A stretch of 5,314 bases of DNA, taken from contig JAFLUS010000168.1 of NCBI GenBank assembly GCA_022508685.1, positions 1 to 5,314 on the forward strand, in the 5' to 3' direction. The first letter of the stretch is position 1, and every line of letters starts with the position of its first letter. The DNA comes from Prevotellaceae bacterium (lineage in GTDB: Bacteria; Bacteroidota; Bacteroidia; Bacteroidales; Bacteroidaceae). Positions 1 to 5,305 of this stretch are shown piece after piece. The notes below the pieces were generated by a model. It was given only the letters and a program-made list of their open reading frames with translations, was not told the origin of the DNA and did not search any database. Made by a program: the position numbers and the translations under genes.

Positions 1-404
1 TCATTCAAAAAGACCGACATCGCGACATTGCCGTCGGACATTCCCTCCACGGCATCCATCGCGACGACCTCGATATGCGCCTCGGCGGACACCCCATTCG
101 CAACGAAGCCTCACAAGGACAAGGCAAAACCTATCTTATCAGCCTCAAATTGGCACAATTCGACTTTCTGCGCCACACACGCACAGGCCCCACCACTCCC
201 ATTCTCCTACTCGATGACCTTTTCGACAAACTGGACACCGAGCGCATCGAGCGCATCATCCACCTCCTTGCAGCCAAGAATTTCGGGCAAATCTTCATCA
301 CCGACACCAACCGCGAACATCTCGACCGCATTCTGCAACAATCCCCCGTTGAACATAAAATCTTCACCATGCGACAGGGCAATATCTTTATTTATAAAGC
401 ATAG
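1..404 (+). CDS. recF: DNA replication and repair protein RecF, C-terminal part (5' truncated by window edge)
   Basis: The frame is open from base 3 to a TAG at 402-404, giving 133 residues. Full RecF is about 360-370 residues, so roughly the last third is present. RecF is an SMC-like ATPase that binds gapped DNA at stalled forks and, with RecO and RecR, helps load RecA. Visible marks, numbered from the first in-frame codon: a GIHRDDL stretch at 17-23 (usually GPHRDDL in RecF), the ABC/SMC signature SQGQ at 37-40 followed by GKT, a Walker B strand ILLLDDL at 67-73 with its acidic pair, the FDKLD D-loop right after it, and an IFITDT strand at 97-102. The Walker A site lies upstream, outside the window. 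The gene converges with the rhamnosidase gene, leaving 19 bases between stop codons. Family assignment is secure. The ATG at 75-77 is internal and not the start. Confidence 0.95.
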   Translation, partial: IQKDRHRDIAVGHSLHGIHRDDLDMRLGGHPIRNEASQGQGKTYLISLKLAQFDFLRHTRTGPTTPILLLDDLFDKLDTERIERIIHLLAAKNFGQIFITDTNREHLDRILQQSPVEHKIFTMRQGNIFIYKA

Positions 405-3722: not shown

Positions 3723-3814
3723 AATAATCGTTATAAAGGTAAATAGTACTTAAAAGAACGCTTCGGGTTTGCATATTCTTTATTATCATGAACTGCAAAA
3801 AGCATTATCGAGTG

Positions 3815-3847
3815 CAAAGTTAGTCTTTTTGTCTGAAAAACTGCAAT
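3815..3847 (-). promoter_or_regulatory. Bacteroidota-type promoter for the leftward gene pair
   Basis: On the minus strand, bases 3822-3815 read TAACTTTG, a full match to the Bacteroidota -7 consensus TAnnTTTG. Upstream of it, after a 21-bp spacer, 3847-3844 reads ATTG, three of four matches to the -33 TTTG element. Transcription would start near 3808, giving a leader of about 85 bases before the ATG at 3722. No other full TAnnTTTG match was found in this direction in the gap; TACCTTTA at 3741-3734 is a weaker one lying too close to the start codon. Confidence 0.6.
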
Positions 3848-3873
3848 AAAATGAAAAAAAAGCCGTAACTTCG
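3841..3873 (+). promoter_or_regulatory. Probable promoter for the queuosine transporter-queF operon
   Basis: TAACTTCG at 3866-3873 matches the Bacteroidota -7 element TAnnTTTG at all but one position and sits in the context GTAACTTCGCAGC, which is typical of such promoters. The -33 position about 21 bp upstream is poor (CTGC at 3841-3844 against TTTG). A start near 3880 would give a leader of about 75 bases that contains the whole pseudoknot at 3921-3951. The region overlaps the -33 part of the leftward promoter. Confidence 0.5.
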
Positions 3874-3906
3874 CAGCGATTTAACGCATTATTCATTTTA
3901 TGCATT

Positions 3907-3921
3907 ACCGCAGTAAGCGGT
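3907..3921 (+). other. Leader hairpin abutting the preQ1 aptamer
   Basis: ACCGC at 3907-3911 pairs with GCGGT at 3917-3921 around the 5-base loop AGTAA. The hairpin lies in the predicted leader of the queuosine operon and ends at the first base of the aptamer. Its GGT arm (3919-3921) is also complementary to ACC at 3952-3954, just before the start codon, so it may take part in the switching part of the leader. Pairing is read directly; the role is inference. A 5-bp stem can occur by chance. Confidence 0.4.
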
Positions 3922-3951
3922 CGTGTGCTTGAACACCACGTAAAAAACAAG
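3921..3951 (+). promoter_or_regulatory. preQ1 class I riboswitch (H-type pseudoknot aptamer)
   Basis: The leader can form the compact preQ1-I pseudoknot. P1 pairs CGTG (3922-3925) with CACG (3937-3940). Loop 1 is the six bases TGCTTG (3926-3931), comparable to UUCUAG of the Bacillus and UCGCAG of the Thermoanaerobacter aptamers as I remember them. P2 pairs CTTG (3928-3931) with CAAG (3948-3951). Loop 2 is AACA, followed by C3936 directly before the 3' strand of P1, the position of the preQ1-recognising cytosine. Loop 3 is T plus six A residues (3941-3947), the usual A-rich loop. P1 has four Watson-Crick pairs, with a U-U at the fifth position. The element ends three bases before the ATG of a queuosine-precursor transporter followed by queF. 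Ligand-stabilised P2 would sit in the ribosome footprint, so translational repression by preQ1 is the likely action. The genes downstream, not chosen in searching for the fold, strongly support the call. Confidence 0.82.
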
Positions 3952-3954
3952 ACC

Positions 3955-4704
3955 ATGACAACATCTGTTTCTTCGGTCGACAATGGTAGCCGCAGCACCA
4001 TTGCGACTTCGGATGCGCAGCAGCCGCATCAAGTGAGTGTAACCTTCATGCTGATGGGCATCTTTTTCTGTGTATGCCTTGTGGCGTCCAATCTGCTCGA
4101 AACGAAAATCGTGCAAGTGGGTCCCATTTCCATGACGGCAGGTTTCCTCGTGTTCCCCATTTCCTACATTCTCAACGACTGCATCGCTGAGGTATGGGGA
4201 TTTCGCAAGGCAAGGCTTGTCATTTGGACGGGGTTCCTGATGAATTTCTTTGTAGTGGCAGTGGGCGGACTTGCCGTCGCCATTCCGCCAGCCCCCTACT
4301 GGGCAGAGAACGAACCGCATTTTGAGTTTGTGTTCGGTCTGGCTCCACGCATTGCAGCAGCCAGTCTGCTCGCTTTCCTCGTCGGTTCGTTCCTTAACGC
4401 ATGGGTGATGAGCCGCATGAAGATTCGCGACAAGGAGCATCGTTTCGCTTGGCGTGCCATTGCTTCGACGCTGGTGGGCGAAAGTGCCGATTCGTTGGTC
4501 TTCTTTCCGCTCGCATTTGGCGGACTGATGAGCATACCGGATTTGCTCAAATTGGTCGTGCTGCAAATCACGGCAAAGACGCTGTACGAAATCGTTGCCT
4601 TGCCGCTCACCATTCGCATCGTCCGCCACGTGAAACGCACGGAAGGCGTGTCGGCATACGACGAAAACATATCGTATAACGTATTCAAAATCAAAAATCT
4701 ATAA
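3955..4704 (+). CDS. yhhQ: Queuosine precursor transporter, YhhQ/DUF165 (VUT) family
   Basis: A 249-residue inner-membrane protein. The family (COG1738) imports 7-deazaguanine precursors preQ0 and/or preQ1, as shown for E. coli YhhQ. After a polar N-terminus of about 26 residues come about six membrane segments, roughly 29-49, 57-75, 87-110, 131-150, 168-190 and 196-223. Family-type motifs are ASNLLETK (44-51), [16 protein letters not shown] (67-82) with acidic D75 and E79 inside the membrane region, and [18 protein letters not shown] (171-188). The ATG at 3955 is preferred: an in-frame GTG at 3925 would add ten residues but lies inside the aptamer. No Shine-Dalgarno sequence is visible. The queF gene starts 13 bases after the stop, so the two form an operon under the preQ1 leader. 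Which precursor is carried cannot be told from sequence. Confidence 0.93.
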
Positions 4705-5185: not shown

Positions 5186-5239
5186 GCCTTCGCACATTCG
5201 ATTTTTCCTATTTATCAAGCATGCAGAAAAGGGCTTTTC

Positions 5240-5305
5240 GGCGTGCGCATAAACGTTCTGAGGCGTGCGCATAAGCGTTTTCAGGCGTATGCATAAGCGT
5301 GTTCA
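5240..5305. repeat. Three imperfect 22-bp tandem repeats downstream of queF
   Basis: Three head-to-tail 22-bp units lie at 5240-5261, 5262-5283 and 5284-5305. Each opens with GGCGT, has a GCATAARCGT core at the same place, and closes with TTCTGA, TTTTCA or GTTCA. Unit 3 differs from unit 2 mainly in TATGCA for TGCGCA and one base near the end; both variants keep a 6-base palindrome. The next bases (5306-5314) read CGTTTATGC, the inverse of the GCATAAACG core of unit 1, and the window then ends, so the array may continue. The stretch 5186-5239 before it holds no gene that I can support. Function unknown. Confidence 0.8.

Follow-up and report, generated by a model that had tools for sequence, protein, structure and literature searches.

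The 5,314-nucleotide stretch of Prevotellaceae DNA analysed here (hereafter the window) contains, directly upstream of genes for a queuosine precursor transporter (yhhQ) and a preQ1 synthase (queF), a candidate regulatory RNA whose sequence makes a well-supported case for a single preQ1-I aptamer of type II, lying within the known class. The best explanation of its placement, which we consider likely, is that closure of this aptamer by preQ1 would block initiation of translation of the yhhQ-queF operon. More tentatively, and with a little under even confidence, we propose that the adenines of its third loop would be the A-box of the ribosome, removed by the ligand, and that the triple arrays of related aptamers in one genus (g15) might constitute a three-site preQ1 switch, the first tandem arrangement of preQ1-I. 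Our literature searches, covering mostly titles and the opening of abstracts, found no prior description of the A-box overlap or of spacer-free multi-aptamer leaders in the wider family.

Table 1. Features of the window with positions counted from its first base
Feature	Position	Strand	Evidence and remarks
End of a recF-like gene	3..404	+	
Alpha-L-rhamnosidase, 882 aa	424..3072	-	PF17389 and neighbours
ORF, 210 aa	3090..3722	-	no Pfam or NCBIfam match
Likely -7 promoter box TAACTTCG, Bacteroidota type	3866..3873	+	one base off TAnnTTTG
P0 hairpin ACCGC-AGTAA-GCGGT	3907..3921	+	sequence; abuts the 5' side of P1
Possible preQ1-I-type pseudoknot	3922..3951	+	both helices formable, read from the sequence
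P1 5' strand CGUG	3922..3925	+	sequence; covariation in relatives
Loop between the P1 strands UGCUUGAACAC	3926..3936	+	sequence
P2 5' strand CUUG, inside that loop	3928..3931	+	sequence; P2 variants among relatives
C just 5' of the P1 3' strand	3936	+	preceded by A3935, giving AC
P1 3' strand CACG	3937..3940	+	sequence; covariation in relatives
Loop 3 UAAAAAA	3941..3947	+	A-run 3942-3947, i.e. -13 to -8 from ATG (A of ATG = 0)
P2 3' strand CAAG	3948..3951	+	sequence; then ACC and ATG at 3955
yhhQ, queuosine precursor transporter, 249 aa	3955..4704	+	PF02592, TIGR00697
queF, preQ1 synthase, 155 aa	4718..5185	+	PF14489, TIGR03139
Tandem repeat, period 22, 3.3 copies (TTTTCAGGCGTGCGCATAAGCG), 3' of queF	5235..5305		

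The element was originally predicted as a 31-base stretch at 3921..3951 with both helices of the preQ1-I pseudoknot, a cytosine directly before the 3' strand of P1, a loop of six adenines and an end three bases before the start codon of yhhQ, itself followed by queF. All of this is borne out by the features in Table 1, and both helices are kept in relatives; the coordinates are also correct except for base 3921, which belongs to the P0 hairpin rather than to P1. The identity of the two genes is secured by matches well over the respective cut-offs, yhhQ scoring 107.3 bits against TIGR00697 'queuosine precursor transporter' (cut-off 50.95) and queF 174.4 bits against TIGR03139 'preQ(1) synthase' (cut-off 86.9). 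Upstream, the likely promoter box is the sole match to TAnnTTyG within 150 bases 5' of the aptamer. The strict form TAnnTTTG, which we take to be the -7 consensus of the Bacteroidota type, is found upstream in 140 of 163 other leaders, as against 13.2 expected from single-base shuffles. P0-like stems of at least 5 pairs, placed 0-3 bases 5' of P1, are present in 77 of 143 single-aptamer leaders as against 90 of 810 shuffled ones, the leaders being related and non-independent. The leader of the window holds a single copy of the aptamer, not a tandem, and no terminator-like site was seen in 3800-3990. In a search of its own genome with a covariance model built from 13 leaders (R1) the place in the window scored 52.3 bits (E 7e-9), the window being itself one of the 13 training rows, and the next best matches reached 17.1 and 13.4 bits. 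When sequence was shuffled in blocks of two bases, a strict descriptor of the motif matched 5 times in 1.33 Mb.

Conservation of the element was assessed across 80 yhhQ loci recovered by a protein scan, of which 79 remain after setting aside one that lacks a leader (L055). The union of R1 and the descriptor finds the motif in all 79; R1 alone recovers 78 at E up to 10 (L063 missed) and the strict descriptor alone 77 (L028 and L036 missed). R1 and a second model, R2, replaced two MAFFT alignments, one of which put the two loop types out of register and the other misplaced CAAG in some rows. Within the window's genus yhhQ is present in 7 of 13 genomes, and the six with a leader, that of the window included, match R1, the seventh (G006) being cut by a contig end. 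Two sub-forms can be distinguished, namely the CUUG/CAAG form of the window and a form with UAUUCUAG or UAUUCCAG and mostly CAGG in Bacteroides and Phocaeicola. At L028 (1426-1479; the same as L234) a hairpin CCTTC...GAAGG is inserted in the aptamer loop and P1, P2 and the A-rich strand are intact.

Of the cells in an alignment of 73 distinct rows made with R1, 99.3% are paired (87.0% in shuffles), with 51 two-sided changes (17.0 in shuffles) and a covariation score of 0.239 (0.050 in shuffles) that is destroyed by sliding the partner strand; none of 500 shuffles, which ignore the relatedness of the rows, reached any of these values. The number of pairs changed on both sides is 3, which 63 of the 500 shuffles matched and is not special. 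Because R1 was built with P1 and favours it, 74 leaders were re-anchored without the letters of P1 (five further leaders could not be anchored), and P1 defined in this manner is fully Watson-Crick in 68 of the 74, the best of 2000 shuffles giving 62; the six failures have a different loop-3 length and were forced into the wrong register. Pair 1 of P1 varies between CG, AU and GC, and pair 3 between UA, AU and GC. P2 is CUUG/CAAG in 57, CCUG/CAGG in 9 and CUGG/CCAG in 1 of 92 distinct cores; in the other 25 one or two of the inner pairs are non-canonical. Its paired cells number 334 of 368, as against a mean of 317 and a maximum of 324 in 1000 shuffles, with the outer C-G and G-C pairs of these cores imposed by the descriptor. 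The outer pair becomes A-U in L260 (AUUG/CAAU) and G-U in L140, and is non-standard in L259 and L261. Since pairs 2-4 of P2 are invariant in one of the alignments (A7), the evidence for P2 comprises fewer changes than that for P1, and the predicted covariation in orthologous leaders stands for P1, where the changes are compensatory, and only in part for P2. All 80 leader rows of alignment A4 and all 77 of A7 have the dinucleotide AC before the 3' strand of P1, a dinucleotide demanded by the descriptor and not by the models; a single weak array copy (the first in G224) ends in CC by eye.

A match to the Rfam preQ1 model (RF00522) had been put forward as a check of the prediction. It did not materialize: no match at the element was recovered in the window with permissive filters, in 3880-3980, or in the whole of its own genome at E up to 10. 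Nor did this model match any of 17 related loci, L002, the place of the window itself, among them, and it passed its cut-off of 39 bits in 0 of 101 family genomes, Bacillus subtilis alone being over the cut-off among 14 control genomes. The two best family matches, at 29.6 and 26.1 bits, are yhhQ leaders with the motif (L249 and L250), and two weaker ones (G094 and G075) overlap R1 matches. As relatives with clear motifs fail too, we do not take the miss as a refutation; it is best read as a limit of the library model and not as a structural feature. Nested folding of 3915-3960 favours another structure, in which the minimum pairs bases around the ATG, and 27 of 200 shuffles fold equally well. 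With a program that cannot form pseudoknots, the nested-model probability of P1 is 0.02 in the window, and among 141 leaders with one aptamer only 13% exceed 0.5. Because the proposed element is a pseudoknot, nested folding is uninformative here.

The place of the element among the known preQ1-I types can be read from the bases flanking P1. The window has AC (A3935 and C3936) before the 3' strand of P1, which the review PMC11625349 gives as the mark of type II, and not the UC that, together with UU atop the 5' strand of P1, typifies type I; above its 5' strand the window has UG. It also lacks the UU flank and AAGG tail of type III, a type almost confined to Pseudomonadota, having instead UG, CAAG and a Bacteroidales host. 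The preQ1-I interpretation of the original prediction is supported by the formable pseudoknot of P1 and P2 and by the C before the 3' strand of P1, even with RF00522 not reached at 39 bits. The type II aptamers of B. subtilis and T. tengcongensis have an A-rich loop 3. They share with the Bacteroidales version an H-type pseudoknot, AC before the 3' strand of P1 and an association with queuosine genes. In contrast to them, the Bacteroidales version has a P1 of four pairs, an A-run that lies over the A-box with no Shine-Dalgarno site to mask, a P0 against P1 in many leaders, and a sequence that RF00522 misses. Imperfect P2 helices have a precedent in the T. tengcongensis aptamer, for which PMC11625349 describes canonical pairing at just two of the four P2 steps. 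The type III switches of gammaproteobacteria likewise control yhhQ and have AC before the 3' strand of P1, but they flank the 5' strand of P1 with UU and mask an AAGG Shine-Dalgarno sequence (as described in passages of PMC11625349 and PMC10622847), whereas that strand is followed by UG in the window.

The genes found downstream of the motif when it is sought as RNA are consistent with this assignment. In total 125 distinct places, meaning distinct sequences in the fetched loci and covering about 64 of the 134 R1 places in the family, include 111 before yhhQ, 9 before queC (8 assigned by blastp and L248 by reading), one before queD-queE (L133) and one before a nucleoside hydrolase (L127), so that queuosine genes follow 121 of the 125. 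Also counted among the 125 are L109, L173 and L266 plus strand, low-scoring descriptor matches without queuosine genes that are regarded as spurious. Seven fetched loci missed by the descriptor lie outside this set: L140, L259, L260 and L261 have yhhQ downstream, L234 is the same place as L028, a yhhQ locus with a hairpin in the loop, L253 was rejected, and L237 (G291, R2, E 2.3e-4) is only a chance look-alike. At E 0.01 with strict filters R1 matches 130 of 251 genomes of the family. In the order, at E 0.01, R1 matches 43 and R2 34 of 295 genomes, together 50 genome handles, a total that includes the chance second site of G291 and four weak R2 matches (G269, G288, G378 and G382). In the phylum, searched with R1 only, 3 of 296 genomes match, two of them in the window's own family; the third (G883, E 0.0026) precedes an argC-like frame, named by look, has no CAAG and was rejected.

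The spacing of the motif bears on its potential mechanism. In 166 distinct leaders with an ATG within 12 bases the 3' strand of P2 lies 4 bases from the ATG in 87, 3-5 in 131 and 2-6 in 156, a spacing not demanded by the descriptor, and loop 3 thus falls at about -9 to -14. The frequency of A is 0.77-0.95 over -9 to -14 and 0.86-0.95 over -9 to -13, and at -12/-13 it is 0.93/0.89 as against 0.42/0.46 for a comparison set of 229 other ORFs, called mechanically in the first 90 sequences; the high frequency in the leaders is partly by design, an A-rich loop 3 being required by the descriptor. Passages of PMC6847099 describe A-12, A-13, A-3 and A-6 as stimulating translation in Flavobacterium johnsoniae, with structure near the start accompanying low translation in a phylum without Shine-Dalgarno sequences, and PMC9976891 reports that ribosomes of Bacteroidota do not recognise Shine-Dalgarno sequences. 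The corresponding bases of the window are A3943/A3942 at -12/-13, A3949 at -6 (within P2) and A3952 at -3; the A-run lies over the adenines that enhance translation in Flavobacterium, and preQ1 would therefore mask the ribosome's own A-box. This overlap could be a coincidence, because an A-rich loop 3 is a general trait of preQ1-I and is also demanded by the descriptor.

In the preferred reading the ligand-free RNA, with its short P1 and P2, would expose the A-run and CAAG. The adenines would then be the loading site of the 30S subunit, which is not dependent on Shine-Dalgarno pairing in Bacteroidota. Loop 3 lies in the groove of P1 in the preQ1-I class. Pairing of preQ1 with C3936 would close the pseudoknot, with CAAG and its A at -6 taken up by P2 and the adenines at -13 to -8 by the groove of P1. 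Initiation would then fail, and at high preQ1 the cell would cease both to import queuosine precursors and to reduce preQ0. Contacts of adenine amino groups at P1 are mentioned in the review PMC11625349. As the leader has no terminator-like site, a separate expression platform seems needless. Control through access to the start codon had originally been proposed as probable; burial of the A-rich strand upstream of the ATG is judged likelier than start-codon access alone. If this reading holds, the A-box-covering spacing would provide a concrete and testable answer to how a translational riboswitch might act without a Shine-Dalgarno sequence.

The cellular ligand could alternatively be preQ0, or both compounds, bound by the same fold in an organism living by preQ0 salvage. 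Such a life would suit the yhhQ-queF operon of the window, and PMC10622847, which deals with the type III switch of E. coli, states that YhhQ imports preQ0 with preference. The host genome itself, which has tgt and no queC over the cut-off (the best being a 22.8-bit match), also suggests salvage, weakly, since a missing queC is slender evidence in a genome that is only 86% complete. Other genomes carry queC under the same motif, and the E. coli and T. tengcongensis members measured in PMC10622847 prefer preQ1, the type II aptamer of the latter binding preQ0 17-fold less tightly; we accordingly hold this alternative to be unlikely. An effect on transcription or RNA stability in place of translation initiation has a parallel in the type II member of B. 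subtilis, which controls transcription according to PMC11625349. Another output may also exist in relatives, as in 4 of the 9 queC leaders the aptamer is 72-169 bases 5' of the ATG (72 in L266, 86 in L175 and L238, and 169 in L248). Against such an effect stand the P2-to-ATG distance of 2-6 bases in 156 of the 166 leaders with an ATG within 12 bases and the lack of a terminator-like site in 3800-3990, and we regard it as quite improbable for the window. The distant queC aptamers themselves (at 1501 in L175 and, on the minus strand, at 424 in L238, 1501 in L248 and 399 in L266) might have a different output, perhaps a transcriptional one.

It may also be asked whether the leader senses anything at all. 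A constitutive A-rich enhancer of translation with a small hairpin would need neither the covarying helices nor the invariant C before the 3' strand of P1 nor the association with queuosine genes, and it appears highly improbable, even with an A-run that fits the general A-box of the phylum as described in PMC6847099 and with no match to Rfam. A preQ1-I aptamer acting on translation initiation remains the preferred reading of the window.

A distinctive elaboration of this theme is seen in g15, a genus of 45 genomes, where the leaders of all 30 genomes with a strong R1 match were examined and the 15 others, having no strong match, were left out. A script called 16 triples, 6 doubles and 7 singles and missed one genome (G569), which makes 22 of 30 leaders tandem; with the weak copies that R1 or inspection by eye recognised counted in, there are 18 triples, 7 doubles and 5 singles, or 25 of 30 tandem. 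The script triples precede yhhQ (L122, L123, L124, L125, L142, L144, L145, L148, L149, L161, L222, L223, L225, L226, L229 and L230) and are spacer-free except L123, with spacers of 0 in 15 of the 16 and of 3 and 0 in G237. In those 15 P1 is CGAG, CGUG and CGAG by position, with a P2 of CCUG/CAGG in the first copy and of CUUG/CAAG in the last; as these P2 sequences differ, the first and last copies can hardly mispair. The middle copy has CCAG/CCAG, with two canonical pairs of four, in 10 triples and CCAG/CAAG in one more, and is otherwise mixed. The exception, G237, has CGAG, CGAG and CGUG for P1 and CUUG/CAAG for P2 in all three copies. All 19 array leaders scanned have a TAnnTTTG box upstream, and in 18 of them 16-19 bases separate its end from the first aptamer, so that the array probably makes up nearly the whole leader; a P0 hairpin next to P1 is found in 2 of these 19, as against 77 of 143 leaders with a single aptamer. 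Loci from other genera showed no second copy adjacent to the first. A pattern for the array junction, run across the order, matched 42 times, in 40 of 393 genomes, and since a reversed control also matched in many genomes it says nothing on arrays elsewhere; L252, one likely-looking match, proved not to be an aptamer.

In a three-site switch of this kind control of the ATG would fall to the last copy, and the others would likely make the response sharper. Alternatively, the extra aptamers may be neutral tandem duplicates with no added function, as might be expected from a copy number that ranges from 1 to 3 within g15 with 7 changes on the YhhQ tree (a quick tree with weak deep forks, in which L020, L022, L024, L025, L026, L028 and L029 form one branch with one or two copies). 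The imperfect P2 of the middle copy in 10 of the 16 script triples, with CCAG/CAAG in one more, and the identical P2 of all three copies in G237 also point in this direction. Yet 15 of the 16 share the same position-specific differences between copies and have zero spacers, a pattern that holds across YhhQ identities of 72-99.6% (14 of these 15 having a usable YhhQ), and we think neutral duplication the less convincing account, rather unlikely though worth keeping in view.

Several riboswitch classes provide comparisons for these arrays. Tandem glycine and guanidine-II riboswitches likewise place several aptamers for one ligand on one expression platform (Table 1 of PMC9481103), but they comprise two aptamers of other folds, whereas g15 has up to three spacer-free preQ1-I pseudoknots. 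Triplets of c-di-GMP-I, FMN, SAM-I and other classes also have three same-class aptamers per leader (PMC9481103) and are listed in its Table 1 under multiple expression platforms. Table 3 of the same 2022 survey lists preQ1-I, -II and -III as not found in tandem, and the passages of PMC11625349 that use the word tandem give no preQ1 example. That review lists Bacteroidota for type I and gives type II a similar distribution, so the presence of preQ1-I in the phylum is not new. Among the papers listed, titles and the opening of abstracts yielded no description of the Bacteroidales family or of an array, and some single leaders may be contained in the alignments of McCown 2014, the main survey. 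Because the Rfam preQ1 model misses the family, queuosine control is probably under-annotated in a major gut order. The spacer-free triple arrays would offer a natural test of what extra ligand sites do on one start codon with a very small aptamer.

The single locus with a nucleoside hydrolase downstream of the same type of aptamer (L127, 2862-3983, minus strand; PF01156) encodes a protein with a lipoprotein-like N-terminus, which perhaps frees queuine-type bases from nucleosides, and its genome has a second aptamer about 14.5 kb away, before yhhQ.
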